Assembly: GCF_019059575.1 (NCBI RefSeq)
Contig: NW_024881990.1
Location: forward strand, 431,654 to 495,653
Direction of reading: 5' to 3'
DNA: 64,000 nt
From: Amphibalanus amphitrite
Taxonomy: Eukaryota; Arthropoda; Thecostraca; Balanomorpha; Balanidae
In this document: one piece after another, positions 14,191 through 60,103 of the stretch
How the letters are laid out: every line of letters starts with the position of its first letter
How positions within the stretch are numbered: the stretch's first letter is position 1
Program-made: the position numbers and the translations under genes
Notes under the pieces: generated by a model
The model's database searches: none
The model's input: only the letters and a program-made list of their open reading frames with translations
Told to the model about the DNA's origin: nothing

Positions 14191-15353
14191 CCCGCGCCCC
14201 GTAGGGCTACCGGCGGACCCTACCACCCGTAGGGGGGGGGGCGTTTCGGCCCCCCCCCCCTAAGATCTCGGAAATTTACCGGCCGATTTTCAAAATTCCA
14301 ACGGCGTTCGATAGCCCCACCCGGGAACTACCTTGTGACCAAATTTCATTGACCTAGGTCAAACCGATGACGTCACAGGTCAGGTCAAAGGTCGGATTTT
14401 CACCGTTCACAGGCATTTCAAGAAATGTGTTGTGAAATCGAGTAAATTGGTAAGTATTGAAAACCATCGATGGTACATTGTTCGTCAAACACATACTTCG
14501 CTATCTGAGGTCACTGATACCAGGTTAGGTCACAGACGTCAGGTCACTGGGGGGTCACAATATGAAAGTGTCGTGTGATACATGTTTTATGGTCCATTTT
14601 ACATGACAAATGCGATTATGTGGGTCAGGCAGCCTTTGGGGCCAGCTTAGGTCACGTTTTGGTGAAGGTCAGGTCAAGGTCAGGTCATATTAGGTCAAAT
14701 TTCAAAGTTTATATTTTTGCACAAAATGGGTATCGATTCGATGCAGCTCGTCACGGGGAGTCCAATGGTGGTCTTTGTTTTGCCTTACGTGGTCTAGAAT
14801 TGCCAAAAAATGAGTTTGAAAATTTGACGTCATCATTTTTGAACAGTTTTTTCGCTGTAACATGGCAAAAAAACGAGATATCGATCTGAAATTTGGTATG
14901 TAGATAGAAGACGGTAGGTACTATCACATATATTCCGGTTTTTTTTCCAAACTCAAAAAACTTTTTGGATTTTTTTGCTAATATATCCAAAAAATCGCAT
15001 TTTTGATTTTTGGGGTCGAAACTCAAAAATTTCAAAAATCCGAGATAGCAGTTTTGTAGCCCTGTCAATTCTACACCTTTTATGTTCTGATCATTTTTCG
15101 GTATCTTCAAAGCTGTAGGCCTGACAGCTCTTCTCACGAAGGTCTTTTTTCGGTCGAAAATGGCAGAACATGACGTCATTCTGACGTCATTTATGGCCAA
15201 CCTATCACAGCTTCTGGAAAAATTTTGGTCACAATGTGTAAAATTGATGCCCGGAGGGGTCCTGAAAGTTTGGTGGCGATATCTCCAGCCGTTTAGGAGA
15301 TATCGACGGAAAAGGACAGGGGGGCCGAAACGGCCCCCCCTACGGGACGCGGG
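14191..15353. mobile_element. Non-autonomous DNA transposon A (CCC...GGG family)
   Basis: 1163 bp, flanked on both sides by TTAT (14187-14190 and 15354-15357). The ends are CCCGCGCCCCGTAGGG on the left and CCCTACGGGACGCGGG on the right. Just inside lie G-run/C-run hairpins around GGGCGTTTCGGCCC (left) and GGGGCCGAAACGGCCCC (right). The left end has an extra 29-35 bp partial duplication. The interior has no long open frame. It has at least four TGACGTCA sites (14368, 14825, 15171, 15182) and many AGGTCA half-sites, some in tandem as AGGTCAGGTCA. A 4-bp TTAA-like target and CCC termini resemble piggyBac-type or other TTAA-targeting superfamilies. That is inference; there is no transposase to confirm it. 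Confidence 0.85.
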
Positions 15354-17489
15354 TTATGCCATTATCTACGGACTGGTAGCCCGCCTGGCACTATCAGTCC
15401 GGAGTTATCGCGCCCTGTTACTATGTCCCAAAGTTCAGAGTGTCTACATCACTGCCAATCCTCTCACTTTTGCTTCCAAAACAACGATCTCTCCCTGGGT
15501 TTGATGCTACTGATGCCCGCACTGCCTAGCCTAGTCTGAGTCACCGCTGTTTGTTTCCATTTCATTGATCCATGTCTTCGATGAGCATGCCGCTTCTGCG
15601 AATGTCTGGCACAGGAACACCACTTCTGACTCTTTTCCTGATGTGAAATCCCCCCTCTTTCCTCTCTACAGGGAGACGTTCCGCTGCTGTCAGCACAGAC
15701 AAAAACCGGAAGGAACTAACGGCTGGCAGAACGGACGCACGCTCGGCGCCGCAAAAACTCCGATCGATGTCGGGTACAAATGATCAGCAGGGCTCAGAGT
15801 ACACAAACGGCGCTGGAGGTCCGTCGTCCGAGCAGCGCCCCCCCTCTCGCTGGGGGGGGGGGGCAGAGTGGGGGTGGCGATGGAGCCAGTGTTTATCATC
15901 ACGTTAGTCATCCTAGCCGCTGTACATCTGCGCTCGTCGGCGCTCGGCGCTCACTCTCGCTCCACAGGTGGGGAGTGATATTGACGGGGACGCTCAGTCG
16001 TATACAGGTGGGGAGTGAAAACTGCGTAAGTAGATTCCATTCACCTAATCAATCAATCACACATTACGCTTTACATAATTGTGAGCTCCTCACTTTCATA
16101 CTCGATCACTTCCCGAAAGCTGCAAGGGAGGACTAGCAGGGTCGCTCCAGACGCACGCTCAGTCACATACAGGTAGCTAGGGGAGCGCCGTGCCTTGTGA
16201 GTATGCTAACGTCGGCAGGACGTGCCGTCGGCCACGGCTGCGGTTGCAGTTAGCTGCTCAGGTACGGTGGAGAGCGAGCCAGGGGTGGCGGGCCGGTCAG
16301 AGTGGTCACCCGAGGGAGGTAGGGAGCAGTTCCGCGGAGAGAGACAGGGGTGGCTCTGAATGACATTTCCGTCATTGTTTACTCTTGCACCGGCATTTCC
16401 GTCATCATTGTTTAGCTTAGCTCTATGAGTGGGGGTGGAGTGATACGCCAATCCATTGGCAAAGCGCCTGCCCATCTCATGTGAGATGATCTCCGGAGCA
16501 TGTCACGGTTCGATCACTAGGTACAATAGAGATGTTGAATACTATATATGGTGATAAACCATAGATACGCGATGCGTTCACATAGATACGCGATGGTGAT
16601 CGACGCGATGCGTTCGATCACCAGTTCAAACCTCACTAAGAATTATCGAATCAACTCAATTGTAGTAAGACGTCCAGCTTAAACGACCCGATGCAGCGCG
16701 GGGCTCCCACAGCAGGTTGGGTGTCACTGCATCTTCGAGACGTTGACTGTCGACAAGGCTCGGGTCAGAGGTGTACGCCTTATCGACAGTCACCATCTAT
16801 GCTAAAGCCGGACTCTGCAACCGGCAACACAACATCGAACCACTCGGTGGGTCCGTCTAGGGAGAGTTGCCCATATAAGGTCAGCGGCGGGCAGAGCTGA
16901 CCCTCTATTCACTGGGCCGTCGCCAAAACTGCAGGGTCGACAGGTGTGCTTCGTCCCACAGAAACTAGCTGGACCACTTGACCAGCCCTGTAAGAGGGGG
17001 CGGTACAATTTGGTATGTTCTACTGGCGACCGGCCGGTAGGTCGGCCTGGGTCGGGTTGGGGAGCGAGGGGATGGCAGGGAGCGAGAGTCAAGGCCTAGA
17101 CAGAGGCCAAGCGTCACGCCGAGGATCGAAGTACGAGGTATCGGTACATCGGACAGGGGGATAACACCGGTGTAAATGCCGCCGACAAAGAAACTGACAC
17201 CTCCGACCGTCGGCCGACACCGGCGTCAAACAAGTCCTGGGATGGGGAGTGGCGACTGATCAACAGATTCATCCCTCTCTGCAGTCGACAAAGAAGCCTA
17301 CTGAGAACGGTTCGTTCAGTCGAGTGACCGAGTTACCGATAACTGGTGGGTGGACTGGTGGTACCCGGCGTTTCTGAAGTTTTAGGAGAAGAGCAAGCAT
17401 CGCAGGGACGTTTGTGGACAGACGATAGCCGTGGGATATACCAGTACGGTCCCACAGTGACCACAGCACCGCGAGCGGGGCAGTGTTGG

Positions 17490-17497
17490 TATAAATA
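17490..17497 (+). promoter_or_regulatory. Possible TATA box (TATAAATA)
   Basis: TATAAATA on the plus strand, antisense to the NHS-family gene, with GC-rich sequence around it. No open frame or splice structure downstream identifies a gene, so this is only a sequence match. Confidence 0.2.
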
Positions 17498-18079
17498 CAC
17501 GGGAGAATCCAGCCGACTCGGTGCAGAGCAAACGGGCTGACTCATCCTGTCTCGTGCTCGTATCGTACCTTCACGATCCACACAACCCCCGCGGGTTGGT
17601 CATGGTCCACTCGAACCCAGCAGACCCCAATCGACCGGTCAAACCGTGCTCAGCATGTACCAACCATACTGGTCTCAGCACGGTGCTGCCTATCGTGCCA
17701 CAATACTGTACCAGCTGACCTGCCCCGTCCCAAACCAGTCGGCGCTCTCTGCATACTCTTCTGGGTGTCCAGCGCAAAGCTGGCTTGTCCTAGCTATCCA
17801 GCATATCCAGCATAGCTCCGACTGAATCGGTGTTCTGGCTGAGCGGTGTTCGCTGTTCAGCAGCTCACTTGTCTGTCAAGCGCGGCGCCGATCTCATCAG
17901 ATACTCTGTTTATCCCCTGCTCAGTGTCGTATCGGCTAAATCGGTGTCCTGTCTTTTAGCGGAACTGTCCATTGCAGTGTTGATGGCTGAATCGGACAGG
18001 GTGTCACTTCACTGTTTAGGCTCAAGAACTGTCTAAATTCGAGCATTCCTGTACGTTCACTTCGTCGTAGATGTCTCAC

Positions 18080-18186
18080 CTTGCAGACCCGACGTCCTCT
18101 AGCGCGCTGGACAGGTCGCTCGAGCTGCCGATGGTGTTTCGTCGCTGCTTGGAGCGTTTTCTCCGCCGCTTCTTCACGTACTCGTA
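18080..18186 (-). CDS. gukh: NHS-family protein, coding exon 5, residues 207-242
   Basis: The acceptor is CTATCGACAG|TACGAG and the donor TCTGCAAG|GTGAGA, 107 nt, phase 0 in, phase 2 out. The peptide YEYVKKRRRKRSKQRRNTIG is strongly basic and matches the vertebrate NHS block SVLQRRRKLRRRKTISGI. The basic stretch could serve as a nuclear-localisation or acidic-lipid-binding segment (inference). The Ser/Asp-rich end, SSSDLSSALEDVGSA, resembles the IDSDES segment that follows in NHS. Confidence 0.9.
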
Positions 18187-19008
18187 CTGTCGATAGACAC
18201 AGGGAGGGTCTGTGTCAGAGGATCCCTAATACAGCAGGGAGGGAGGGGAAGGGACGGGCCGTGCAACTGTGCAGACTCAGCGGCCTTCAGATCCACCTGT
18301 CGGACATAGAAAGGCGGCCGGTTCGTACAGCCTGCACGGACTCACGGTAACGACTCGTGAGCGGGCGGAGGGGAGGAGCGGACAGACCCAACCGTCGCCG
18401 GGTGGCCGGGGAAGACAATAGTTCCCCGAGTGAACGACCTTGGGTCTGGGTACTGTGGGAACAGCTGCCCAGTTCCGGGAACTAATGGCGTCATCACTGG
18501 ACAAAGCAGCCCAACTGGAGACACTACACGGCACAATACAGCAGTCATTGTCCCTTGTGAACGGGGCGGCTGCGGGAGTTCGTGCGATCAAGGGTGATTA
18601 GAACGAGAAACGTTCACTCAAACACCAGAAAGTCGAACGGATGTTCGCCGACGTCGTAAACACTCCCACACCCACCCCTTTACCCTTGAGCAAAGAGCAT
18701 GCCCTATTCCGTTCCCTCTACCATGATCATGGGAACTAACCAGCCCACCCACCTATCCAATGGACATACCCATGACTCATGTCCCTTCCTCTCAAGAAAT
18801 CCCGGAATCCCTCCATCCTTTTGTGCCAGGAACAATCCCCACCCGCCAGACTTCCCTCGATCAGAAAGCACACCTCTGTCCACCCTTCCCTGCTCTTACC
18901 AGGAACAAGCTCCATCCACCAGTCGTCCCTAGACTAGACAGCACACCCTTATCCATCCTTCCCTGCCCTAGTATACACATTACACACCCTCCGTCCCTGT
19001 CATCTCAC
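18187..19008 (-). other. Intron 4 of the NHS-family gene (822 bp)
   Basis: The donor is GGTGCAG|GTGAGA and the acceptor TCGACAG, phase 0. The plus strand is C-rich at 18690-18990 (CCATCC/CTTCCC-type imperfect repeats). No other feature is seen. Confidence 0.88.
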
Positions 19009-19077
19009 CTGCACCAGCGACCGGCGGAACTGGAGCTGCCTCTCGAAGCTGTGACCGGTGACATCCAGCGGAATCAC
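19009..19077 (-). CDS. gukh: NHS-family protein, coding exon 4, residues 184-206
   Basis: A 69-nt exon, phase 0 at both ends, with acceptor TTCCGGCCCAG|GTGATT and donor GTGCAG|GTGAGA. The peptide VIPLDVTGHSFERQLQFRRS corresponds to the vertebrate NHS block [20 protein letters not shown], one of the best-conserved short segments of the family. This exon is far too small for an open-frame search and was found by its peptide and splice sites. Exon 5 lies 822 bp downstream in the same phase. Confidence 0.92.
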
Positions 19078-20069
19078 CTGGGCCGGAAAGCGACGAGTCC
19101 GGGCGCGGGTCAGCCGGTCCGGACTGGGCAGTCGGCGGCCGGCCGCCTGAGGTCACGGCACGCGGTCAGCGAGCCCCACCCATCACGGCACGAGAGCACG
19201 GTCACGATACGAGATCACGGTCACGACAGCAGGTCACGGATCGATACACACGCGCGGCTCACGGCGACACGGCGGCCCTGGCGGCCCGGGCGGCGCTGTC
19301 GGCGCGGCGGCCGCGGCGGAGACACTGGCGTCGCTCGGTCAGAACTGGCCTGCACCCGTCACCCCTCCCTCCTTCCCCGCTCGGCTCGCCGCCGCGCCGC
19401 CGGCCGGTCGCCGCTGCAGGCAGGCAGGCCTACCTGCCCGACAGGCAGCGGAGGGAGGGAGGGGGCTTCGGGAAGGACGTGGCTGTCCAGACGTCGGCAA
19501 CCGGCGGGGAAACGGCGCACCGAGCCGAGCCCGCCACCAGGAAAACGGCGTGTATGACGTCGGCTCGTCGATGGAAGGAGATTTAGTGACGCTGACAAAG
19601 AATGAGCCCGATTGTGCATTAGAATTGGCCGAAGGACGGAGCCATAATTTTCCTCATGCAGACGACCTGAAGGTGCGCCGTCAGAATTATGCAGACTTGG
19701 TCAGAGATAGGTAAAAAACGTAGCATGTGAAGACATAAAATATGGCATGCGCCATGCGCTCATCAATTTTACACAACGACCTGTAATTTTCCTTTCACGG
19801 GGTGCATTGAACCGACTGGCGATTTTCTCCGAATCACGTCACTGCCTTGTCATTCCTTTCAGTGACATCAGACCCACACAGCCCATCGTGCTCTCTCAGA
19901 GGCGTAAAAAAGTCCCCTTAGTGACGTCAACACCACACTATTCGATGTCGAAAGCCTCCTTCCCATGGCCCATTCTGCTACAATGACGCCATCACCTCAG
20001 TCCTCCCTCAGACTGTCCCACATTCCATCCTGCAAGGGCACGACTGTTTTCCCCTCCACCTACCTCTGA

Positions 20070-20320
20070 GTGTCGTCTGGACTGTGTTCCCTTCCCTCAC
20101 CCATGTTCCAGACCTCACCTCACCCTAGCTCAGCTCCTCCCACAGGTCTGAGAGCGCGGCCTGGGCTGTGTTCCCTTCCCTCGCCCCACCCTAGCTCAGC
20201 TCCACCTACCTCTGACAACGGTCTGGGTTGTAATTCCCTTCCCTCACCCCTGTTCCAGACCTCACCGCACCCTAGCTCAGCTCCACCTACCTCTGACAAC
20301 GGCCTGGGCAGTGTTCCGAG
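20070..20320. repeat. Minisatellite, about 75-85 bp units
   Basis: About three copies of a unit with TTCCCTTCCCTCACCC, GTTCCAGACCTCACC, CCCTAGCTCAGCTCC and CTACCTCTGACAACGG in that order. Copies are clearest at 20089, 20170 and 20229. Some units lack the GTTCCAGACC part, so the length varies. Confidence 0.8.
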
Positions 20321-20733
20321 CCGGTTGTCGGGATGGACGGGCGATATCAGCTCCTCCTCGTCCCCACTCCAGTCAGGCAGCAGCTCAAACGCCTCCGGCT
20401 GAAACACAGGAGAATGTTCGTCAGTTTTCATACTCAGGAATTACCCGACGACCCATCCTTATCCTTGGACAATGGACAGTCTCTCTCGTTCCGACCTGGC
20501 AGTCACCTACACCAGCCAACCGTCGAGGACAGCTCAGCTGAAGCACACTCCTCAGGGGTGACTGTGCAGTGTGCATGTCCCAAGGGATGGGCTCAGCCGC
20601 CGCGGCGCACTAGCCACTGGTCACATAATTTTTATGACTCGCCCACTCACCCTCTGATCCGATAGCCTTGAAATGGGCTAGCTATGTAGACCAAGGGAGG
20701 CAACTAATCCAGCCAGACAGCCAAGCAAACATG

Positions 20734-20794
20734 CAAACAAACAAACAAACAAACAAACAAACAAACAAACAAACAAACAAACAAACAAACAAAC
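20734..20794. repeat. (AAAC)n microsatellite
   Basis: A perfect run of CAAA repeats of about 60 bp, preceded by a degenerate copy (GCAAACATGCAAAC). It lies in intron 3. Minus-strand frames read Cys-Leu-Phe-Val repeats, an artefact. Confidence 0.97.
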
Positions 20795-22824
20795 ATTAAA
20801 TGCTGTCTGGGCCACACACGCTGACTGAAACACATCAGTCACTGTCCTGTACGAATCACTAACCTCCTGCTGAATCACTGAGAATACACCCTCCCGGCCA
20901 CATCAATATATCTACATCACCTGGCTGAAGAACAAGGGGCTGCGGACGATTCCTAGTCTGTGAGGATCGTCATGGTCTACCCTCACCGGTCAAGACCGGT
21001 CCTGTACCGACTGACCCCAGAGCCTTCCCGGTCCCAAACCAACCATTGGCATACGACACGGCACGCGGCGGCCGTGCCAGTATGCAGGTACTCGGGCTAA
21101 TTGGCTACACCACAGCACCGTCCGCAGTCATGCGGTAGCGTTGGAGCCTCGGAGCCCGGTGGCACGGCCAGACGGGACCCGGCGGTGCCACCGCCATTAT
21201 ACAGCCGCCCTGGGACGCGGCCTACTCTCCTGAACTGTTCTGCACCGCCCGGAGACGGTCAGTGGTATGGGGATATCGGCCAACTCGTGCCGCAAACGAG
21301 ATAAGTAGCTGAGCGCAGAGGCAGAGGCGGAGGTGCTGATCTCTTCCTCCCCGGTCCATGATATACTCCTATACTCCCCAAGTCGCTATGAAATAACCTT
21401 AAGATGGTGGGGAGGGGGGGGGGGAGCAGCGGGAATAACCCATCGGTATCGGGCCGAGGTCCGGACTCAGTCGTCACTACGACTGCTGGACATCCCCAGT
21501 GCTTAGCGGCTCCCGCGCCGTTATCAGTTATTTACTGTCACAACTATGACGTCTTTTTTATCAGCGAGCCTTCAGTCGTTACAAGTCGTCGGTAAACATA
21601 CATACTTAAAGTCAATTTACGAACGCCAGTCCTCTAGTGACATCAGTGATACACCGCAACCCCAGGTCAGTCTCACATCAGTCCAAGTGATCAGTCGATT
21701 CGCCATCAATCCTATTTCACATTTAAACCGACGCCAGTCTCTCCTACATCACCATGGTGGCCGATTGGTGGTTGATGTCAAGAGACCATGCGGGTGCCGT
21801 GACAGCGCGTCCCACCGCCGCGCCGGGAAAAAGGGAGCCGCTGACAGGATTAGAAACCTACCGGCATTACATCATCGTCCCCGAATACCGCGGTTCTGCC
21901 ATGCTGCAGCAGCCGCCAGCCAGCAACTAACCACCGCGCCGGCAAGCTGAGACCGCCACGGCACGGCAAGGTGCGGCAAGGTGCAGCACAGCACAGGGCA
22001 GTCAGCGTCCATAGACCGGGGTAACGGGGTACGGAAAGGGCTGGAACGGGGGGCGAGGCAGGGTCGGCAACTGTTTGCTCGGAGCACCGATAGATACACG
22101 TTACATCGACAGGTCAACGACAACCCTCAGAAATGGGAGGAAGCCAGGGTGCAAAAATGCCGGGAATGGTATTTATTTGAGCACCACTATAACGTCAACA
22201 CTTCCATCGGTGCAGCCAGCGCCCCCCCCCCCCCCATCCAGTTCGGCCTTAAGTTATCTCAAGGCTCGACCCAGACTTACGACGCAGTAATGACTACTGA
22301 GTAACGCCCCATAACGAGTCACTATATTCTATTTGTGTCACCCCGTGGAAACAGAACGTATAACTGACGCAAATACTGTCATCGAACTGAGTGATGCATG
22401 ACTCCGAATCGCCTGCAGACAGGAGTATATTGCCTTTAATGACGCCGGCACCAGATTATGACAGCCATAAATGTTAAACTGTTTCGGACGGACGCACGAC
22501 ACCCGGTCAGTGACGGCGACACGGCAGGAGGCTTTCAGAATAATTGCAGGCTAAGTGGATACAGATGCCGAGCGCACCATGTCACGATATGCGTCACAGA
22601 TTAGCCACTATGCAGAGTGATGCTTCGAAGTCATCGGGACTCGGGAGGCACGGGGAATTACTTTCCGTGCAATGCACGCAGCGCCCGACACGAGTATTAA
22701 TATTTGCATACAGAACACCACTCTGTCAGCGCGCTCCAATGAACCGTTCTATAACTTCTACGTGTATATCCATTACCCAGCCAGCCATCCTGGTCCAGCA
22801 TCACGGTGCCTAAACTATGTCTAT

Positions 22825-23770
22825 CCCTCGCCCATGTAGGGGGGGGTTGGTGCAACCCCTCCCCCCTGAGGTTTTTCGGAAATAGTGCAAAAACGGCGGC
22901 GCGCAGCGCCGCCAAATTTTGGGTACCTTATGGGGCAAACCTTGCGCATCTTTTGATAAAAAAAATTTGACCGGGTCATGTCAGGTCACGGAGTTATGAC
23001 GTCACAAAGGGAACAGCCTCCGGCCGGATTTTCACAAACTGAGTGCCAACGCCCGAGGTTTCCTGCCGGTGGTACGGACATCGGTTGATGGATCGTAATG
23101 AAACTTCCCATGCATGTTGGGGCAAGTATTGGCTATCATATGGTATAAGAAACTTGACCGGGTCAGGTCAGGTCACGGAGCTATGACGTCACAAGAGGAA
23201 CAGCGTCCGGTAGTATTTTTGAAAAGCGCCCGAACCACTATTTTGCTAATTCTTGTCACCTCAATGGGAATATGCAGCAATATTAGCTTCTATAGGGAGC
23301 AAATGGACCTTCCAAATCCAAAAATACAATCAGATTTCAAAAATTTAAATTTTGATTTTTCGAATTTCTGCCGCCGACTGTGACCTTGCCGACTTCCGGC
23401 GCTCCCAACGCGCCATTTTTAGAGCTAGGGAAACGAAATAGATACCAAACGATAGAGAATTGATCAAGGAACACGATAGTGAAGGTTTCAAGTCGATATC
23501 TCCCACCGTTTTGCCGCAATCGCCGCGGAAAGTTGAAAAAGTCTATTTTTTCGAAAATTTGACCTTTGACCGGTCAAAAGTAGGTCAAATGTTGACCTAG
23601 GACCAAAAAATATACCACCAATCGCGAGATCTCGGCGAGAGCAATCCGTTGGTTTTTTCCGCTAAGCTCTACGACGCTCCGTTTTCAAAAGCCAAGGGGG
23701 GGGGGGTCGCACCAACCCCCCCCCCCCCCTGCATGGGCGAAGGTGGCAGATCGCCGTTTACGGGCGAGGG
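22825..23770. mobile_element. Non-autonomous DNA transposon B (CCC...GGG family)
   Basis: 946 bp, flanked by CTAT on both sides (22821-22824 and 23771-23774). The left end is CCCTCGCCCATGTAGGGG and the right ends CGGGCGAGGG, with a second inner inverted block CATGGGCGA / TCGCCCATG next to G- and C-runs around GGTTGGTGCAACC and GGTCGCACCAACC. The right end carries about 30 extra bases between the outer and inner repeats. It has an internal tandem duplication of about 187 bp (copies start near 22967 and 23154), each with the string TATGACGTCACAA and AGGTCA half-sites. No transposase frame. Same architecture and motifs as elements A and C. Confidence 0.85.
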
Positions 23771-24214
23771 CTATTGCATAAGCCTTTAGCCACCCTGGGG
23801 ACAGCTTATCAGACCACTAAGCAATGCGAAAATGGAGCACACTGATGCCGGCTCCGAACGTCATTATATCACACGTCACCGTTAGCAGGCCAGTATGTAA
23901 GCAGAGTATTACCGTCATTACGAGTAGATGGCAGACAGTATGGATGGGGATCCCGCTTCAGTGTGTTCCATTCGCGCATTGCCCTGTGGTCTGATAGTTG
24001 GCCCCAGGGTGGCTAAGGCTTGTCCCAAACGGAGAAAGCCGGTTGCATCGATGGGTTTATACCGTCTGACGGTCAGGCTCATCACTATCACAGTGGGGAC
24101 GGCACCTGCCCAAGGCCACGGCCGGGGGGGGGGGGGGGGGCGGTAACGCGGCATCCGTCGCCAACCGGTCCGGTGATTTCTTTGTCTCTCTGTCCGTGTG
24201 CCACTGTCACGGGG

Positions 24215-24365
24215 TGCCACGAGTTGACTCAGAGTCACGAAGAGCGCCACGAGTCGACTGAGAGTCACGGAGACAACACGAGTTGGCTCCGAGTCACGGA
24301 GAGCGCCACGAGTCGACTGAGAGTCAAGGGGACGTCACGAGTCGGCTCAGAGCCACGGAGAGCGC
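24215..24365. repeat. 59-bp minisatellite
   Basis: GCGCCACGAGTCGACTGAGA recurs at 24244 and 24303 (59-bp period), and a half-unit of about 30 bp (CACGAGTTGACTCAGAGTCA type) is repeated between them. The element at 22825-23770 lies about 450 bp away. An 18-base G run starts at 24124, near the array start. Confidence 0.85.
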
Positions 24366-26351: not shown

Positions 26352-26357
26352 TATATA
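26352..26357. promoter_or_regulatory. TATATA inside a palindromic CCTATATAGG
   Basis: CCTATATAGG also fits the serum-response CArG-box pattern CC(A/T)6GG. Alone in a 13.7-kb intron it is weak evidence for an SRF/MADS site or a TATA box. It is notable only because SRF targets include actin-regulating genes, which is the likely role of the host gene. Confidence 0.25.
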
Positions 26358-47230: not shown

Positions 47231-47281
47231 CTACCGTCGACGGTAGACCGTCGTTCGGTAGACGGCCGTCTAGCGAACGAC
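47231..47281. repeat. Adjacent palindromes, 16 bp and 32 bp
   Basis: CTACCGTCGACGGTAG (47231-47246) is a perfect palindrome. It is followed at 47250-47281 by a 32-bp near-perfect palindrome with half-site GTCGTTCGGTAGACGG (one mismatch pair). The two share the words GTAGAC and CCGTC, so one probably derived from the other. Confidence 0.85.
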
Positions 47282-50200
47282 GAAGCATCGCCCGCACCAA
47301 TCATCTGCATGATGGCGGGGCGTCAGAGCGCCTTCCAGTGTTCCTCAGGCCTCAGATGTGACCTGATGTTCTAGACGCTATAGAGTTAAGATGTTCCAGA
47401 GATGTGGCCGCTCAAATGTCGGACAAGTATGCTGATCGGATCAATCGGGGTGGGTGTGTGGGGGCTGAATCAGAGCAAGGGAAAGGCACAACAGACGCAA
47501 CGGCCATGATGCATAAGGTCCTGATATGCACATTGCACATTGCACAGCTCGGTCTGTGCCACTGCTTTACAGGTGCCACTGCTATTGTGAGTCCAACAAG
47601 ATTGCTGTTTGCAGGAGATTGCAGTCCAACTATACAGGATTTTCTCTGAGTGAATACGACTGTGATCCATTTATATAAAGCTGCTGGCTGTTCATTTGTA
47701 GCTCAGTGCACCTCAACACGGTAATGATAGTTCTGCTTGAGATTGACATTGCATTGCAAGACAGCTGGATGACGGGCATAGAAACTCATTTCTACAGGAC
47801 TGATGACGACGTGAAACTGCACTCCATTTCTGCAAGAAGACAGCTGGCTGCCGAGAATCGAGACTGATCCCTACAGTGATCCCGGCCGTCGCCTGTCGAC
47901 AGTTTCGAAGGAGGATGACGTGGCTGAACTCCTCTCGGCGTGAGGAGCGGCCGACCGGTACGGGTGCTCGGCATGGAGAACTGAACTTTTTGTGCCGACA
48001 GACACGGCCGCCGTTCGGGCACAAAAACTCAATCAAGCCGGCTGAGGTGGAACACCGCCTCGGCGACTGAAGGGCTAGATGAGACGACAGAGCGGCACGG
48101 CGCGGCTCTTGGCTGTCGGCCCTGAGGATGTCGGCCCAGCGTTGTGGCCCTCAAGAAATCACCTTCCTTTATCCCGGGGTACTGCTGGCTGAGGAAGCGG
48201 ACAGTCTCCCGGTCAGTAAATCGCCCTCTGTCAGTGATAGGTGCGTAGCATTGGTCATTGTGTCGGTGCGGCGAGCACGGTCTGATCTCGGTGGTATGTG
48301 GGTGGTCCGACCGTCCCTTCCGCCGACCCTAATCACCCAGGACCGGCTGGGACCACCACTCAGGACCGTCCAAGCCGGTCCTGATTCACCACTGGAGACC
48401 GCCCGGGGCCCGGATGACGGATCCGACCTCCACCTGTAATTGAATGGGTTTGTGCACCAAGCACTGTACTCCTTCGGTGACTAATTTCAGCTGGAATTGT
48501 GATCCCGTTCTGAGAGTCATAACAAACCGGTTGGCATGTGCGGAGACTTGTTCGATGACCATTGCACTGGCCGAAAATTTAAGCACACAAACCCTCTCGA
48601 GTTGAGCAAAATGAGCATGGACCTGTTCCATTGGTAAACAAGGCTCCTCCTGCCCCTCTCAGGCCCGTGCCAGCCCGCACACAGCGACCGCTGCTGTCGT
48701 CGTCCCTCGGACTGCCGGCGGCAGTGACCGTCACACCGGCCCGGCCCGCACTGGCGACAGCCCAGTTGGCGAGTGACACCAGCGCGGCGACACCAAACAG
48801 TCCAAGACGGCGGGCGCCGCGCCGCGCTGCCACCCGACCGGCGCGGCGGTGACCGACGGTCAGCGGCAGTCAGCACTGGTCAGTGGTCAACAAGGGCCAG
48901 CATAGGCAAACAACGGTCAGAACCGGTCAGCAAAGGTCAGGATCGGTCCGCAGCGTCAGCATAGGCTAGCACAGATCAGCAATGGCCTTGGATCAGGTGT
49001 CAGGATGTCACCAGTAGTCAGCATCTGTCAAGCGGTGTTTCATCTGACGCGGCTGGTGGTTAATCACATGAAGTGGAACAGACCCCCTGTTGGAACCTCA
49101 AAAGTGTCGAATTCGCCCACATTAGCCGGTACTCAAAGGCGGACGTTCAGTCCATTAGAAGCTAAATCACGCTCGTAAGAAGCGGAGGATGAGTTGCAAT
49201 GTGTGAAATCCAATCTGCATGATGACACTCATAACCTTCATAGTATGCGAACCTGTTGGATTCTGCATGCCTGGTTTTATGTCGTCTGGGTCCATTTCAC
49301 GACATAAGCAAGACGAGATCGTGTAAACACACCTTGACACCGCTGTTTGATGACCGAACAAATTGGGGCGCGAGTCATATTCAGCAGCTCACTTTTGTTT
49401 AGACATAAATCGTGCCGCCAAGAGCGAGAAGACATATAACAGACGGCGCCAGTCTCTATTCCAGTCTTTCACCCATCTCCATCCACACCTTCTTCGACCC
49501 CCGTCGGCCACCGTCGCAGCTGTATCTCGATCGTGATCGACAGCTTTATCGTGGACTCCTACGAAAGACTCTCCCCAGTACTAACTGCTAACGAGATAAT
49601 TATTAGAGTTAATTGGCTGATTAGGTTCGAATCACGTGTTGAAGACTGCGTAGAAAGCACGACTACAGGACATTGACACTATTCTAGTCTCTTCGTTGCA
49701 TAAAATTATAATAAACTAAGGCGTGAATTCAGCCAAAAATGACTGGGAGATTATCATTTCAATCACAAGCCTCCTAACACAGCACGTGTAGTTCAGTTCG
49801 ATTTTCCATATAAGGCAAGAGTGAACTCTTTGCTGCAATGATTGGCTGGTACGGCTTATCGGGCTATTTTTGCAGCACGAGTGCCCCCCCCCCCTTGACC
49901 GGTCCGCAGTCCGTCGGCAGATCAGCACCTAATGCCCGAACAAACAGCAGATTACCGGACCGACACGACGGTCTCTGTTTGAATAGCTGCAGCTGATAGG
50001 TGCTGATGCAGCCATCATAGCCCAGAGACGCCGGCATGACACCGACACGGTCCATGGCGCACCTGGGATGTCATCTGTCTGAGGTCGGTCTGAGGGCTGT
50101 CTGACACCACCCTGACAGCTGGCTGACATATATCTGACAGCTGCAGTATGACAGAACAGGCCTAACGAAGATGCAAACTTTGGGACAATAACACTCGAAG

Positions 50201-51339
50201 GAGCGTCTTCCCACCAATGGAGCGGAGACACATTACCTACTGGTAGATAGGACGTAATCAGGCTATCTGAAGTCATCAAACCAGCCGGGCAAGCCCGACT
50301 AATTAGCTGAAGAGCGGCAGTTGCAGCTAATGAGGGTGGTAGCAGAGTTTGGATCGTCAATATATAGACTAGAATTGCGATAGACTCAACTGCAGCACAT
50401 TTGAGCACTCAGAAACGTTGCGACAAGTTTCAATGATTGCACACATTCCATGAGGTCTTATATCTAGCGTCATATTTGCCGGGGTCACAAAAGAATTCTG
50501 AAAGGGATCATGTGGTCGACGCCGGCTGCAGCCTAGTGGTAGCTCAATTGATCGTTGTGATTACATTTATGTATTGAATGATTATCGAAGCATAACGGTA
50601 GGTACACACTCAACGCTCGAACATTCATGTCTACAAACTGTACAAAGTCATGTCTACAAAGGTGTGTATTTACCTACCAGTTGATTCGAGCAGACAGTAG
50701 GTAACAGATAACCGCACGAGAAAACAAGAAGAACGACGACGCCTCAGTGTAATTATGCTCCGATCTTGTGGTACTTACATACATGCGGCTGGGCAGTGGG
50801 CATACTCTGCTCAAGCCTGTTCCTTATCCCAAAGGCAATGCATGTCTTTGCAACAGTCTTTCGCAATGCATGCCCGAGAAGGACATGACGTCAACCCATA
50901 GCGGGACGGCTTTTCAATAGATGGGACATTCCTGAAGCACTATATCTTCATTATTTCAGACATCATTCAAAATAAGCTCGATGTCCTCAGCCGCGACAGC
51001 CATTAAAAATCCTTTTGACCGACGATCTGAAGACCACACCTCTCCATGTTGAGCCCCAGCCATGTTATGACGTCACACGGTGAGTGTACAGACCATCCAG
51101 GAGAGCGTTAGAGCCGGAGAGCGGACCGGTTCGTTGTTGGTCGCGCGGTGGCACCGCGGAAGGAATGTTAATTAATGCAGGAGCGTCCTGCCGGATATCT
51201 CTATAATGGCGAGCCGGGCTGTCCGGGTAACGCTCAACGGGGCTGTAATTGAGGGAGGAGACAACCAGAGGAGAGAGAGATGAGGGAGGGAGGGAGAGGG
51301 ACAGACCCAGGGACGGAAAGAGGAAGAGGGAAAGCAAGT

Positions 51340-51430
51340 GTGAGAGGGAGAAGGAGAGAGAGAGAGAGAGAGGATGAGAGAGAAAGAAAGAAACAAAGAC
51401 AGAAAGAAAGAAAATAAGAAAGAGAGGAGG
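51340..51430. repeat. GA/GAAA-rich microsatellite
   Basis: GAGAGAGAGAGA followed by GAAAGAAAGAAA-type repeats, within a longer purine-rich plus strand from about 51250. Minus-strand frames here read Ser/Leu-rich and are not genes. Confidence 0.85.
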
Positions 51431-54400
51431 GAGAGGGGAGAGCAAGATGAAGGAGATGGAGATTGGAGATGACAGTAGCGAAGAGAAGCACCCATTACAT
51501 AGCGGTCGTTGTGTTGGAGATTGAATGGAGCGACAGGTCATGGGACAAATAACGTGATCGGGTGATGGAGTGACGCAGCCATTCAGATGATATCAGGTGA
51601 TGGCTGGCGTGGCTGGGTGATGGGAGGCTGATGGCCACCAACGGTCGCACATACTGATCAGCGCGGTCGGGATGGGAGCTGGGACGGCTCGTCCAGCGCT
51701 GCTGCTGCCTGGAACAGTGTGGCAGTGTGGCTGCAGCACTTGTAAGTACAGGGTTGAAGCAAAACAGTCGGACCACTGGTAACTTAAACTGAACCAGCCA
51801 GCATCATAGAAAGCAAAGATATCATGGCATGACTGAATCAGACAAGATAAGACTGACTTTTGGCCCAGACCTGTTAAAAAGGACTGAGCCAGGTCTAATC
51901 CAGCAGGTCTTGTCAGACTGACCCAGACTGGCCAACACAGAAGGCTTCATTCCACATTCACCGAAGTTAGTGCAACCAGAACAGGCTCGTTACGACTAGT
52001 CGACCAGTATTTCACTCTGACAGTGCCATACACCACCAACCACCAAAACAAAATAATTGAATCGAAAAAGTAACAGGGTCAGGTCAACCAGTCGCCATAT
52101 CCTACCGATCGCCAAAATCATTTAATAAAATATAACACGAGTAAATAAACTAAGAGTGTCCCGGCGCTCCAATAGACGCCGCAGCCCTGACATGTCTCCA
52201 GGGCCGTAGTGGGGCGGTCGGGTCATAAAATCGGTGCCCACTCAACCCTTACCTGCCACCGGGCCAATAACCAGGCCGTAATTGGGTGCCGTCGACCCTG
52301 GCGACGACCTGGGTGTATTGATCTCCGAGCTGTGCACGGCACAGCCGCACTGCAGGACCGCTGACCGGGTGACGGCAGGCGATCGGGCCCACCCGGACCA
52401 CCAGACTGACAGACTGCCGGCAGACAGTCCGGTGACAGTGACAAGCTAGTCTGCCCGACAGAATGTTTGTCCAATTGTCACCACCATGCCGCTCAGCTCC
52501 AGTTGTCGAGTGAACGAACACACCGCAACCAGCCGCACACTGGCCTCCGAAAATTAAATACCCACATAAATCGAACTGGATTGGGGTAATACCGATTAGC
52601 GAAAGGTAGACTATATCCCCGGAAAATCAACGCCCTAGCTGGATCCGTATTTCTTTGTCTCTACGGGATTCATAAATCTATACAAAGCCAGGCCCTAGCC
52701 CAGTTGTCCTGATCCCTATCCTGATCGGCGGCCCACACTGATAAGGTGCCGGTCGGACCTTTGGCGCCAGAGTCCGATCTGGTCTACCCGCACACCCACT
52801 CAGGTCGTCAGGTCAGTGGTCCAAGCTGGTCGTTACTGACACCTCCACGGGACACCATCAGCATACCACGCCGTCGTGGCGGTCGAGAGAGGCGCAGTTT
52901 GATCTCTCAGCTCTGAGAGCGGCGTCAGCTGATCGACTCCCAGCTCTGTGGAGAATCAGCAGGTTTATTGCTAACTTGACCCGAACTCATCCGTAGACTT
53001 GCCGATCCCTCAAGAAACATCCCAACACATCAGTGGAACACCGTCAGATCTTCCCAGCTTTGAAGCGTGTCAATATCTTAGAACGCTGAGGTAGATCGTC
53101 ATATTTTCTAGCTCTGAGGAGCATTACGATCCTCTCAGCCCTGGACAACATTTCTCTTCCAGCTCATAAAGAGCACCTTCAGAGGCATTTCTGGCTCGGT
53201 GGGAGCGCCGCCGGGCTCTCCTACGGACGGTGCTAATCGTCCTCGGTGAGCCCAGGGCCAGCTGCCCGGTTGTTGCTCCGCCCGCGTGTCGGTCTATTTC
53301 CTGCTCGGTAATGAGAGTAGCACGCGCGCCGTGCAGCTCTCTCCCTCGTCAGAGGAATACACCGAGCCCGTTATCTCCCCCTCTTTCCCCCTCCCTCTCC
53401 CGGCGCCACGCCTGCTCTCCGTACACTGCAGGTGTGGCTGGCAGCGGAGGAATGACCGCCAGATTCCCTGAGTGCCGACATGCGCTGTCGGCGTCTCTGC
53501 TCGACTCAGCTCGCGACGAGTCTACATACATATACTCGTATGACACAGCGGCGCTGGCCAAAAATGTAGCACTGGCGGATCAAGTGCGTTCAGGACCGGT
53601 TCTAGCAAATCACACCAATCATTCGGCCCACCCAGGGTGCTAGTAAAAGCCCTGGTCGGCATGGCAACTGTTATTATGACGTCATCGTAATCCCCGCCTT
53701 GAAAACACCCCCGAAAACGGCCCCAGCCCTCGCCATGAAACCACCGTAACTGCCAGGCTAAGCTGAATTCCGGAACCGGCGTGTAAAAATGGTAAGCTGA
53801 ATTTAATTAAACGCTGCGTTTGACGTGCGATGCCTGTGGTTCTCCCGGCGCTCGGCAACATGAGTTGGAGTCGAACGCAGCCATGAATCAGTCTCGCCCC
53901 CTCGGCTTTGCCAGGGCGCCTGACATCTACGTCATGGATGGTGACAGTCGATGTCCGCGGTTAGAACCTGATGACAAAGGTCATGATGACGCATATCACC
54001 GCCTGTTTGTGGGCGACGCGCCGATAGGGGTAGGGTAACGAACTAACGACAGGACACCGAGCCACAGCCGGCTACCGTCCACCTGGGGAGAGGACAGGGG
54101 AAGGGGAGAGGGGGAGCGCTGCCAGGTGTGGAGCGGGCTGGTCGAGTGGACAGGATGTCCACGGGGCCGAACATCCGGGATGACGTCATCAACGCGGGAG
54201 AAGAACGACGCGACTGGCCGATTAGGGTGATTATTTATTAAGGACATGCAGACAGGACATACAGACACTTCTGGTCGCCGGGAAAAGTGATCCGACCGAA
54301 ATATAGTGTGACTGGAGTTGGACGATGCGCCGTGACCTGGTGATATGTCGTGTCAGGTCGATTGGGTTAGACTGGTAGAAAATATCGCCTTCTGATCCGG

Positions 54401-56894
54401 TCTGAGCTCTGAAGAGAGAAACGAATGGAAGAAGTCCTAACTTTCCGTCTGTGGCCCATCACTGTCTGTAGAGGGAGGGGGGGGGGGGCACGCGAAGGGG
54501 CGGAGGCAGGTGGCTGAGAGGGGGCGGGACCGCACGGCAGCTGTTTGCGGAGCACGGAGGCGGGACCGTGACCGAGCACCAGCTGCTCCCAAAACAGAGG
54601 TACAGATGAGGTAAAATGAGGTCGTAATTTTCGACCGATTCAACTCGTGCCACAACTCAACATTGCTTCAGACGCCTAGCTGATGCAGCAATGGAGGGGG
54701 GAGAAACAGCATGCAACACATCCGGCAGCGACGCAGACCGTCACTCGTCCGAGCGACAGATTCTGAAACCGATCGGCTCCAATTTCAGCAGACGGAGTCG
54801 GCGTTTGAAGCGCTCGCTGCGTCGGCTATTTGACACCGTCTGGGCGCGGTGCGGGCGAGACATCGCGGCTGTTCCGCGTCGACAGATGAGATGATCTGTC
54901 TGAGCAACAGACGGTCTGACGGGAGGGCAGACGGCCAGAGGAAACCCGAGACGAAATGGCCTGTTGGTGCTCACACATACCATCGTCTCGGCATGCTCAG
55001 ATGTCCCACAAACACATCCGGCATCGGATTGCTGGACGTTGGGGTTGGGACGGGGAGTGTCTTGGTTGGTCATCGGTACAGGGCCGGATAAAACTCAAAC
55101 TCTGTGCGGACAACACGATCCATTTCCCGGTCGGAGCCTCTAACTAATACCTAAGCCTGGGACTAACCTAGAGTTGCACCTGACCGGCACAAAGCTTGCC
55201 TGGGGTCGAGAATTTGCCCGACGCCGGCACATGAACAACAAGGTAACGGGAACCAGTCGGGTCGGCGCTGAGGTTGCGCACCAACCGGCGCGCAGCGGGG
55301 AAAGGTCAGAAAAAGGTGCTCCACCGAGGTGAGGTCGACTCCGGACCTCGTAACACGTGCCGGAGAATCGGGTCCAGTGCCGGACAGAGCCCAGTGGCGT
55401 CGTTTCTTTGTGTCAGCGGAGCCGGTCGGGTCCGGCGGCGTTGGGTAGTCCCGTTACACAGGCTAATTTGTGCTAACCAGGGTCCGACCGTGCCGGTCAG
55501 CCGACTCCGGACAATGCCGGGAGCCCGCGCGGTCCAATCAACGTCCATTGGAAACTATTAATCCGTGACGCTAGATACCGTTCAGCGAAGAAGCTAAGTA
55601 TATATTCCACAGATATTCAGGTCGGTTTGAAATCGTACCTCCCCTGTAGCCTGAATAACCTACTATCCTGAACTGACTCGAGCTATTTGGCTCGAAAGGT
55701 CATGGAGTCTTGGCGTCGCCCACATCAGCGACGCCCAGACGCCGCCGATACGTTACGATCGATCGCTGTGAAAAGCACCCATGGACTGCTCAATACAAGC
55801 TTAGTCAATAGCCCAGCGTTTGTAAACACGCTTAGTTAGCTGGTGGTAAGCAAGATTCTGACCTGACATGACACTGCCGTCTATGTCATCGAGCTACAGA
55901 AGAACAGACGTCAACAAAGAACAAAATATTCAGCTGTGCAGCTCTGGCTGCTTGGTAAGCATATCTAAGGGCGGGGGCGACACGAATGACGCCGCATTCG
56001 GTCAGGACAGGGATGGGTGCAAACTCGGCACATGGGGAGCGGCCGTCCATACATTTGTGAGGGCGGCGCTGGGAGGAGCCCCTTCTAGGAGCGGCTCCAG
56101 CATTCGACCTTCAGAGGCTGCCTGTGGACTTTAGTGACACATTCGGCCGTTCAGTCAGCCATCAGGACATGTGTGTCCGTGTCTGAATAGAGCGCAGAGT
56201 TTCCTGCGTCGTTCTGGGAGTTTCCTCAATGGAAAGGAAACCGACAGCAATACTTCTGGAACGGTGTTGGGTGATTCAGCCGATACGGTCACCTTTACAG
56301 GGAAGGAGCGTGCCTTTTGTCACTTCAGCACGCTTCTAATGCTGGTTGTGTGGTCGTTAAAAGGTGGCGGCGCACCCCAAGCCTCCGCCTTAATTTCCAA
56401 CATTAATTACCCGCAAATGCATCGTAATAGCAGACTTCCATGGCTGCCACCAATCTGGAAATCGAGAATTGTGCAGTATCCATTATATGATACAGAACAG
56501 GATAGCATGAATGAAACAAACTGTTCTGTTCACAAAACGCTGCAGCATGTGAATGCTATTTGGTGAATGTCATTTATCAGCGCGCAGTGACTGCCCTAAC
56601 GAGCGTGCCCCGGCGGCTCTGAGCAGGGCCTGCAGATCGCAGCTGACAGTCCGGTGGACGATCGGAGGTGGGGGGTTATAATATATAGCCTTGGGTGGAG
56701 CTCTATCAGGCGTCAGCGACTGTCAGCTATAAACTTGCACGTCCGGCGACCGAAAATGACAAGAAAATAGAGAAAAGAACGCCGCTCTGCTGTGATGAGG
56801 AACACATCTGGTTTCACACAGGGGAGAATCAGAATAAAGCCCGTCATTTGAGGGGGCGCGCTCACAGAAATAGACAGAAAATCAGAACACTTAC

Positions 56895-57174
56895 GTATCG
56901 GCGTGTCTGTGTTCTTGAGCTGCACCACTTTGCGTCGGACCACCTCCACGCGGTTCCGCAGGACCTGAGCTCGGTCCGAGACGGTCACAAAGCTGTCGTG
57001 CAGCTCCTCGAAAATATCCTCAGCCGCCAGCACCAGACTGGAGAGCTGGTGCAGCGCAGTGGTGAGCGCTGCGTTGGCAGCGGCGCAGCTCTCATCCCCG
57101 CCATCACCCTGACCGGGCAGAGGCCGGCCATCGCACAGCTGCAGCGGGGAAATGTGTCGCAGATAGAACGGCAT
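56895..57174 (-). CDS. gukh: NHS-family protein, coding exon 1, residues 1-94 (WAVE-homology domain)
   Basis: ATG at 57174-57172 with an in-frame TGA nine bases upstream (57183-57181), so the start is secure. The protein begins MPFYLRHISPLQLC, parallel to the vertebrate NHS start MPFAKRIVEPQWLC. After a Gly/Asp-rich linker, residues 34-90 (NAALTTALHQLSSLV... to ...VVRRKVVQLKNTD) form the amphipathic helical WAVE-homology domain. In NHS this region is linked to binding Abi-family partners and to regulating lamellipodia (known of the family). The donor is CGATAC|GTAAGT, phase 1. The upstream region is CpG-rich and has no TATA box. Confidence 0.94.
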
Positions 57175-58536
57175 GGTCAATCACCGAGCGCAGCCCCGGC
57201 CCGCACCTCCTCACTGCTCGCCCACCGCCACACTGTCGCTAGCACTGCACCTCCGCAGCGCTACCACTGACTCCGCCTAGCGCCACGCTGACGCTGGCTT
57301 GCGCTCCGTCTCGGCAGCGTCGTCACTCCACCTTTACGCTTGCTCCATATCACTCCGTCCTCACCGAACTTCATCCAAAGACGGATCAGTCTTCACCTAC
57401 CAGTTGCCACAAGTCACGAGTGAAGATTTGTGCCGAAAGCTGGCACCGTTTCATACCGCAACAAGTTTCACGAAGCATCTGAGTTACAGCTCAGACAACA
57501 ACATGTCAGCAAAACATAAAACGAACGAAAACAATCTCACCACTTTTCGCTACCCTCCCTTTGCTACCACTACGCGTCTCACCACTTTGTAGGGACACGC
57601 GCGACTTTGCGCGCGACGAGCGCACGGGCGGCCTCGGGCAACCACAACAAACGCTACAATACTGGCGAGCCAGTGCGTCATTACCACGAGTTTCCCTGGC
57701 TATCCGCGTTGTTTGGGAAATGTTGCTATTTATCATTATTGTATTATTTTCCGAAAAATAATATTCAAGATAACTTAAATCAGCCATATATTTCAAAAAG
57801 TAAGCCTTACGCTAAGGTAAGTGAGGAGAATTGGGAAAATAAATGATTTTAGAGGGGAAATCACCTCTAAAAATAGTTTCCACTTCACTCACTAGATGTC
57901 AGCAAAATATGGCAATTATAGATGTCGCTAGCTCACTGACAGGCATCGTCTCTATTATGTTTTAGGGCCTTGGTCTCTGGGTTACGGACAAAAGTACGTA
58001 TCGCTAAAGTACGTAGGACAAAAGTACGTAAGCAAAAGTACGTAGGATTAAAGTACGTATCGCAGAAGTACGTACAGTATAAAGTACGTATGGACAAAAG
58101 TACGCCAGGGACAAAAGTACGTATCGCAGAAGTACGTACAATATAAAGTACGTATGGACAAAAGTACGTCAAGGACAAAAGTACGTATCGCAGAAGTACG
58201 TACAGTATAAAGTACGTGTGGAAAAAAGTACGTCAGGGACAAAAGAACGTATCGCAGAAGTACGTACTGTATAAAGTACGTATGGACAAAAGTACGTCAG
58301 GGACAAAAGTACGTATCGCAGAAGTACGTAGGGTATAAAGTACGTATGGACAAAAGTACGTCACGGACAAAAGTACGTATAGCTAATGTTCGTAGGGTAA
58401 AAAGTACGTATGAACAAAAGTACGTCACGGACAAAAGTACGTATCGCAGAAGTACGTAGGGTATAAAGTACGTATGGACAAAAGTACGTCACGTACAAAA
58501 GCCTACGTATAGCAAATGTACGTAGGGTATAAAGTA

Positions 58537-60103
58537 GGGTAGCCTTGGGCAAGACGCCCCAGATAATTTATTTTGCTACATAGGTACCTACTTTTATCTC
58601 ACATCACCTGGAAGGCCACATTTGTGCTCAATGTGTTCTTTGGACATTTTACTTTAAATTCCATCCCTCAAATTCATTCACTTATGATCGGACTCCCAGT
58701 TAGGAAGTGCTTTGTGAAGCAACTGCTAATGGGGCATTTTGCCCCAACCCCAGCCCCCAGGGCAAAACGCCCCACGGCCTGAGGCAAGAAGCCCCATACA
58801 CTAGATTAACCCTCGCGGGCCCGGGGGGCGTTTTTCGCCCCCCCCCCCCCCCCTCCTGGCGAATATTTGCGATAGCTCCCGAACGCTTAGGGATAGGAAA
58901 GCAAAACTTTCAGTACCTTTTTTCACATCAATTTGACATCTTCTGAAGTAAAAAGTTTGGACCTAGCCCCATTAATGACGTCACAAAGTCGATTTTTCTA
59001 GACCCCTGCACGGCAAACTTCGGTGTCACAGACGCGAACTTCAAATAGCTGCTAAAATAGAGTTTTAAAGATAAAGACAAATTACGAGCACGGTTGTGTA
59101 GCATTTGACCTAGACAAAAATACAAAAATAGTTTTAGTGACCTGAGATTAGAGGTCAGGTCAACGACCCCGAGCTGTGGTTTTAGTTTTTCGCAAATAAC
59201 TTCGACAAAAATGGTCCTAGAGCTACGGTAGTGGTACCATCGCATTTGTCTTGTCAAGCCGCGTCGAATGATACATATTTTGTTTTGTTTGGAAAAGGGC
59301 AAGTTTTATGTTGACCTCATGTTACCTCGAATGACCTTTGGTTGACCTTGACACATCAAAAGTCGTTTATGATGGATTCGTACCCGCTAATCACGAATCT
59401 GGCATCTATTTTCCTCTAAGCCTTTATTTAGAGCCTCCAGATGGCAAAATTGTCTTATTTATTATTACTAACTTGAATCAGTGAAATAGCCTCTAGCAAG
59501 GACTCTTTTCTGTGACCTTGACCTTTGAGCAGCCTTGTATCGTAAGATGAACCACAAACAGGGACCTGATAAGCCTCAAAACATTTCAAAACATCTTGGA
59601 AGTTGACACACAAGATGTACGAAAAAGTGTAAGTTTGAGGTCAATTTTGAGCATGACCTTGACCTTGACCTTTGATGTTGAGCACATTGTCGAAATTCTC
59701 AGATTCTCTTCTTTCGTTTGACACCCAATTTTACCGGTTTTATGCATCCTGCCGTCCTCTAGAACGCTCACTTTGAGATCACTACACATGTGCCGGTTTT
59801 TGCCTTTGACCTTGACCTCTGACCTTGAAAATTGACCTGAGGTCAAAAATTTTGGGTGCTTTAGAAGCGTCTCGTAAGGACCTTTCGTTTGGTATCGCTT
59901 TTGTTTGCGTAGCTCTCTTATTTACGGAGTTAGACAGGGGGGGGGGGGTGAAAAACGCCCCTCCCCGGGCTGCGGTGGTTGGAATTACCCCCCGGGCCCG
60001 GCCGGGTTAACAGAAGAGAGGATCTTTCCCCAGAACCCTGCCAGTTCCGAGAAACATCGGTGAGGTGTTTTACCTCGGCGGGGCGACTTGCCCCGGTCTA
60101 CCC
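58537..60103. mobile_element. TA-flanked transposon with GGGTAGCCTTGGGCAAG ends, carrying a nested insertion
   Basis: The left end is GGGTAGCCTTGGGCAAGACG; the reverse complement of the right end is GGGTAGACCGGGGCAAGTCG (20 of 24 bases match over the full repeat). TA lies at 58535-58536 and 60104-60105. Removing the element and one TA restores GTATAAAG-TA-CGTGTGGA, exactly an existing unit of the satellite array (compare about 58205-58222), so the insertion site is proven by the empty-site sequence. Without the nested element C and its duplication the element is about 366 bp, non-coding, with GGGGCATTTTGCCCC and GGCAAAACGCCCC motifs inside. Confidence 0.88.
58810..60006. mobile_element. Non-autonomous DNA transposon C (CCC...GGG family), nested
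   Basis: 1197 bp, flanked by TTAA (58806-58809 and 60007-60010). Left end CCCTCGCGGGCCCGGGGGGC, right end CCCCCCGGGCCCGGCCGGG; inner inverted blocks GGGCGTTTTTCGCCC and GGGTGAAAAACGCCC next to long C and G runs. The right end holds about 30 extra bases between the outer and inner blocks, as in element B. The interior has AATGACGTCACAAAG at 58975 (compare TATGACGTCACAA in B) and many TGACCT/AGGTCA half-sites, including GACCTTGACCTTGACCTTTG near 59660. No transposase. It sits inside the TA-flanked element. Confidence 0.88.

Follow-up and report, generated by a model that had tools for sequence, protein, structure and literature searches.

The piggyBac element (IFP2) of Trichoplusia ni (T. ni) has lopsided ends that have been called puzzling, and either a 5-bp insertion in the spacing of its repeats or randomisation of the second repeat cuts activity by about half (PMC7351741). 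In mouse cells, the element integrates at TTAA in 93% of cases and elsewhere in 7% (PMC3983033). Here we describe three elements, E1, E2 and E3, in a 64,000-nt stretch of Amphibalanus amphitrite contig NW_024881990.1 (the whole stretch is called the window). We conclude, with a probability of roughly 96%, that they are internally deleted, non-autonomous members of a piggyBac lineage, whose transposases mobilise them in trans. Judged from their sequences, they are of a known kind, families of non-autonomous elements within the T. ni clade of piggyBac; their conserved end plan and their motif arrays were not found described in the literature searched.

Three elements with CCC/GGG borders

The original prediction, made from the letters of the window, was of non-coding transposons with CCC/GGG ends. 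This was right for all three elements, and the proposed borders and 4-bp duplications match the sequence exactly.

14191..15353, minus strand: E1 (1163 bp), predicted non-autonomous piggyBac element with its left end (LE) at 15353 and its right end (RE) at 14191
14187..14190 (left) and 15354..15357 (right): target duplication of E1, TTAT
22825..23770, plus strand: E2 (946 bp), predicted non-autonomous piggyBac element with its LE at 22825 and its RE at 23770
22821..22824 (left) and 23771..23774 (right): target duplication of E2, CTAT
58810..60006, plus strand: E3 (1197 bp), predicted non-autonomous piggyBac element with its LE at 58810 and its RE at 60006
58806..58809 (left) and 60007..60010 (right): target duplication of E3, TTAA

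The subterminal palindromes of G and C runs were likewise found at both ends of each element, and the internal string proposed as shared, TGACGTCACA(A/G), has four plus-strand sites in the window, every one within the elements (14368, 22997, 23184 and 58976). The 16-bp tips match at 12-15 of 16 positions. They start CCCT at both ends of E2, CCCT and CCCG in E3 and CCCG at both ends of E1, a one-base departure from the CC[C/T]T given as the start of the 12-19 bp inverted tips of piggyBac elements (PMC2872659). All three are relatives of one another, as their left ends show (58-66% over 89-183 bp). A scan of the window for a 4-bp duplication, CCC...GGG and tips that match at 12 or more of 16 bases found exactly E1, E2 and E3; because 20 dinucleotide shuffles gave 0-3 hits (mean 0.7, with one shuffle reaching 3), the window evidence alone is suggestive, mildly above chance.

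Genome copies and paralogous empty sites of E1 and E2

A first look at the 807.55-Mb genome gave 6469 candidates for E1, 1766 for E2 and 2621 for E3. Only the best 40 for each were scored, so that copy numbers are lower bounds, and the ranking followed similarity to the window copies, which makes the sample non-random. When the border comparison proposed with the original prediction was carried out for E1 and E2, the CCC...GGG ends of the copies coincided, and matched duplications were detected at 63 of 70 loci (the best 40 for E1 and 30 of the best 40 for E2, two of these with identical flanks). On average, E1 copies diverge from their consensus by 2.1% and E2 copies by 0.39%; both are members of young families. 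The earlier view of the elements as subfamilies of one group stands; the view that they are not recent copies is wrong for E1 and E2.

Comparison with empty loci, also proposed at the outset, was performed on paralogs, using the joined flanks of 67 E1/E2 loci against the fetched loci (L023, L027 and L042 were excluded). For four of the 67, we detected uninterrupted paralogs with a single target. L054, an E2 copy within an element of a further family, F9, has two such paralogs (98%, one TTAA), and L050 has one (97%). L005 sits in a tandem array whose remaining units carry one TTAA, and L007, the two sides of which are unmatched, has a paralog (92%) in which the site reads TTAG. The three paralogs of L048 (82-92%), with a target reading GTAAA, and the three of L009 (82-85%), with a target reading TTTC, were not counted, nor were several further flank matches that proved to be self-matches or neighbouring elements. 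The fetched loci yielded no empty counterpart for any of the three window loci. Since genome copies stop at the same borders, 63 of 70 have matched target duplications and four have paralogous empty sites, E1 and E2 are confirmed as transposons.

Autonomous relatives and their transposase

A genome search with PF13843 returned 116 matches, of which 18 were fetched (L071-L082 and L084-L089). In six of these, both tips are of the AT type (L071, L074, L075, L078, L080 and L082), six show no matched end pair in the fetched stretch (L072, L073, L076, L077, L079 and L089), and the remaining six represent three lineages with G-run/C-run ends: the group of A44, A527, C1173 and C171, then C33, then C702. 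A44, A527 and C1173 (a 3969-bp copy) are 3.96-3.97 kb long and flanked by TTAA at either end; C171 shows the right end only, the end also seen for C33. A44 is 99.2% identical to A527, with its frame shifted near the end, and C702 has a 683-codon frame and encloses a nested 987-bp element of family F7.

L084:219-4181: A527, 3963 bp, TTAA, with an open frame for a 646-aa transposase

The autonomous copies that the original prediction had suggested looking for were thus found for E1 and E2, as relatives with TTAA, like ends and a PF13843 transposase. Positions 5-395 of E2 match the left part of A44 at 80.5% and positions 593-900 the right part at 83.5%, with the intervening gene missing from E2. 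Similarly, E1 matches the left side of C702 over positions 1-1014 (77%) and the right end over 961-1169 (65%). F10, a family close to E1 (85% identity over 669 bp), matches C702 at 84% on the left side and 72% at the right end.

The A527 transposase matches PF13843 with an E value of 2.2e-69 and the T. ni piggyBac chain 6x67 with 2e-78 across residues 89-638, compared with 3e-30 for piggyBat; the alignment to 6x67 covers acidic catalytic motifs as well as the Cys/His pattern at the C terminus. For C33 (1.3e-56) and C702 (2.1e-66), too, T. ni piggyBac is a better match than piggyBat. Among the AT-type elements, L074 is closer to piggyBat and L080 about equally close to both. In a tree of 16 rows, the three transposases from elements with G-run/C-run ends form a clade with T. 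ni piggyBac (support 100/99; 88/83 for the three alone), and 11 other piggyBac transposases of this genome fall outside it. The lead towards piggyBac that the CCC tips and TTAA had given is therefore borne out by the linked transposase.

Several observations pull the other way. No near-identical autonomous element was found for E1 or E2 (77-84%), and no partner for E3, among the 18 fetched of the 116 transposase matches; a precise partner for the youngest copies is one that we infer. One third of the fetched matches (6/18) show no matched ends. Two rows of the tree, those from the PDB, consist of partial segments taken from the alignment and were flagged for unlike composition; the piggyBat branch is long.

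Two candidates were rejected. The 604-aa piggyBac of L071, which has at least 10 near-identical scores, carries AT-type tips and is nested inside an element with G-run/C-run ends, and at L089 the tip of the G-run/C-run end faces the frame, which places the C18 transposase frame outside that element. We also noted that the AT-tip piggyBacs at L071:677-3349 and L075:540-3531, both with open transposase frames, are nested in GC-run elements of families F10 and F6, respectively.

A conserved plan of lopsided ends

We compared the ends of 11 families or subfamilies, namely E1-E3, A527 and F4-F10, the last recognised as neighbours or nest sites within fetched loci; F6b, a decayed second copy of F6, was left out. 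In the common plan, the left end consists of the tip and a palindrome, and the right end of the tip, a spacer, a copy of tip bp 7-16 located 26-28 bp inward, and a palindrome. The parts in the window are as follows.

14191..14206, minus strand: RE tip of E1, CCCGCGCCCCGTAGGG
14226..14234, minus strand: RE inner copy of E1, tip bp 8-16 (CCCGTAGGG), 28 bp inward
14232..14258, no strand: RE G-run/C-run palindrome of E1, predicted site for a dimer of the transposase cysteine-rich domain
15319..15353, minus strand: LE of E1, tip (15338-15353) and palindrome
22825..22866, plus strand: LE of E2, tip and G-run/C-run palindrome
23692..23770, plus strand: RE of E2, in the order palindrome, inner repeat (tip bp 7-16), spacer, tip
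58823..58850, no strand: LE palindrome of E3
59937..60006, plus strand: RE of E3, in the order palindrome, inner repeat, spacer, tip

For all 11, the best match of LE bp 7-15 within the right end lies at an offset of 26-28, and in 9 of the 11 at least 7 of 9 positions match, as against 3 of 110 cross-family pairs. Palindrome centres fall at bp 24-31 in the left end and at 52-61.5 in the right end for the ten elements measured (LE of F6b, 23.5; RE of E3, 40.5 by program and 54.5 by a variant measure). The plan is less clear-cut in other respects, which count against it: 41 of the 110 cross-family pairs likewise peak at diagonal 26-28, probably because G runs are shared; F5 and E3 reach only 6 of 9, with E3 tied with offset 33; F6b lacks the repeat at 26-28; and L078, an AT-type element outside the clade, has a weak match (6/10) at offset 26.

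In the six AT-type piggyBacs, a palindrome near bp 24.5 at one end is clear in three, weak in two and absent in one, and none of the six has a clear tip duplication at 26-28 bp. The palindrome thus looks to be a general feature, and duplication within the right end seems to belong to the T. ni piggyBac clade.

By analogy with piggyBac biochemistry, the transposase core would bind tip bp 7-16, and a dimer of the C-terminal cysteine-rich domain would bind the G-run/C-run palindrome. The second core site of the right end, 26-28 bp inward, may then allow two dimers to be loaded in phase, after which the ends would be cut via hairpins and joined to TTAA. Across 11 families or subfamilies, the 26-28 bp spacing has been kept while the letters changed. 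We take this as an argument that phased double binding is under selection, and this natural series provides ready end pairs for testing it.

E3 as a probable passenger of a larger repeat

Of the 40 E3 copies scored, 19 were fetched. In 17 of these, the flanks on both sides match those of the window copy (in one case only partly on the right), and in the other two a single flank is shared. In the window, E3 lies within a larger repeat.

57986..60961, no strand: foldback-like repeat holding E3, with inverted TACGTA-rich tandem arrays; ends approximate

The arrays of this carrier are inverted (57986-58044 versus 60903-60961, 92% complementary) and built of 64-bp and 73-bp units; no target duplication of the carrier was found at 57986-60961. 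The simplest reading of these sequences is that E3 is a single TTAA insertion into a foldback-like element that later multiplied, so that the fetched copies would have spread mainly as passengers. The shared flanks rule out an independent family expansion of E3 and do not agree with the rank equal to E1 and E2 that the original prediction had given it. As its copies trace largely to one shared insertion, the E3 duplication counts once.

Clusters of AGGTCA and TGACGTCA

AGGTCA, counted on either strand, occurs 16 times in E1, 7 in E2 and 18 in E3, compared with shuffle means of 0.53, 0.29 and 0.63. There are 15-21 copies in F5-F10, 13 in F6b, 13 in A527 (3.96 kb) and none in F4, and the six AT-type elements have 0-4 per 2.7-3.1 kb. 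Clusters of AGGTCA and/or TGACGTCA are present in 10 of the 11 families or subfamilies, with TGACGTCA absent from F4, F5 and F9. We take AGGTCA to be a nuclear-receptor half-site and TGACGTCA a cyclic AMP response element (CRE). A search of the literature for AGGTCA in miniature inverted-repeat transposable elements found nothing relevant, which does not establish that it is absent from print. Since F4 (L004:624-1496) has the ends and no AGGTCA and F7 (L062:507-1496) has 18 copies, the motif is common and not required for the ends.

14368..14375, no strand: TGACGTCA in E1; further ones at 14825, 15171 and 15182
22931..23032, plus strand: module copy 1 of E2, 80% identical to copy 2, holding AGGTCA and TGACGTCA (22997)
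23118..23219, plus strand: module copy 2 of E2, with TGACGTCA at 23184

The clusters are spaced by ~166-168 bp, a peak reached by 0 of 2000 random placements for eight families (F4, F6b, F10 and A527 not in the set) and again by 0 of 2000 for four families chosen as less related. For single families, 0-85 of 1000 random placements reach the peak, which lies at 158-198 bp. Because the families are related, these tests are not independent.

One explanation is that the clusters are functionless remnants, left when a single ancestral module was duplicated in tandem or in inverted form. Plain duplicate modules are indeed present in E2 (the 80% direct repeat), A527, F7 and F9. A527 has three to four 187-bp tandem modules, 76% alike, with GGTCAGGTCA and TGACGTCA upstream of the transposase frame (L084:219-1631), and TATAAAAGG lies 70 bp ahead of its first ATG; F7 and F9 have imperfect inverted repeats of 250-308 bp, and F8 has short motif-centred repeats. 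The shared ancestry that ties the periodicities together fits this explanation as well. However, clusters are also present in elements whose self-comparison shows, beyond the ends, no repeat (E3, F5 and F10), only a 42-bp palindrome (F6) or only an AT-rich one (E1), the period differs by family and, by eye, the motif block is the best-kept part of the four A527 modules. On balance, we consider duplication without function to be an even bet.

Most families could instead be mobile enhancer arrays, in which AGGTCA and TGACGTCA recur with a nucleosome-like repeat of ~166 bp at a fixed phase from the left tip. Such arrays might first have served the transposase promoter and been kept in non-coding copies because open, positioned chromatin would aid their transposition; we offer this tentatively, as a rather unlikely reading, and nucleosome phasing as the source of the spacing is a guess. 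If the clusters were functional, the elements would scatter regulatory sites through the genome.

Target sites

The original prediction had doubted a strict TTAA target in view of the TTAT and CTAT at E1 and E2. For E1, 29 of the best 40 loci have TTAA on both sides, four have other matched duplications (TTAT, the window copy; ATAA; CTAT; ATAT) and seven are unmatched or truncated; for E2, 27 of the 30 loci have TTAA and three have other matched duplications (CTAT, the window copy; CTAA; ATAA). Together, 56 of the 63 matched copies lie in TTAA, making TTAT and CTAT minority sites, and the doubt is not upheld. A target relaxed to NTAN in this lineage, unlike that of piggyBac, might be suspected from the central TA retained in all seven non-TTAA duplications (7/63) and from the TTAG of the L007 empty site. 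Yet mouse-cell piggyBac already inserts 7% of the time outside TTAA (PMC3983033), and 7 of 62 independent copies is no significant excess over that share (p = 0.14), in a sample ranked by similarity to the window copies and so not random. Relaxation is therefore improbable, and the window's targets appear ordinary.

By eye, 9 of the 70 E1/E2 loci (L004, L023, L024, L026, L027, L040, L044, L062 and L063) adjoin another CCC...GGG element of a different family via one shared TTAA, and the pairs look as if older insertions supply sites for newer ones.

Membership of another superfamily with a 4-bp target and piggyBac-like ends (Kolobok, Sola3 or similar) is very improbable: TTAT and CTAT do occur in the window and TTAA targets are common to several superfamilies, but the autonomous relatives with like ends carry a PF13843 transposase whose nearest solved structure is T. 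ni piggyBac, that transposase sits between sequences matching both sides of E2 and of E1, and the linked transposases found were PF13843 in a survey with no search aimed at those of other superfamilies.

Elsewhere in the window, long open frames at 7220-10318, 10836-12149 and 56713-57180 (minus) resemble exons of an animal gene and have no Pfam match; an NHS/GUK-holder label considered for open reading frames of the window was dropped, as three of them gave no Pfam match.

Comparison with known systems

The assignment of E1, E2 and E3 to the piggyBac lineage can be set against four systems. Six AT-type piggyBacs from this genome (L071, L074, L075, L078, L080 and L082) share a matched 4-bp duplication (TTAA in five of six, ATAA in L080), CCC or CCT tips and PF13843, but are without G-run/C-run ends and fall outside the T. 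ni clade. piggyBat of Myotis lucifugus belongs to the same superfamily and has a left end with a short motif and imperfect palindromes, but its right end is described as being without a palindrome (PMC11707139); the A527 transposase is much nearer T. ni piggyBac.

CMITE of Acropora corals is also non-coding, with CCC tips, TTAA and linked piggyBac-like autonomous elements, and can form tandem arrays, as do the E1/E2 loci that abut across a shared TTAA. It differs in being ~100 bp long, and the part of the report seen does not describe a palindrome and duplication layout (PMC2872659).

The tip and palindrome letters of T. ni piggyBac differ beyond CCC, the palindrome arms here being G and C runs, and the window elements are non-coding and carry AGGTCA/CRE clusters. 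T. ni piggyBac shares with them TTAA, CCC tips, a 16-bp tip followed by a left-end palindrome (bp 17-33) and a homologous transposase, and this genetic-engineering vector has the same lopsided ends.

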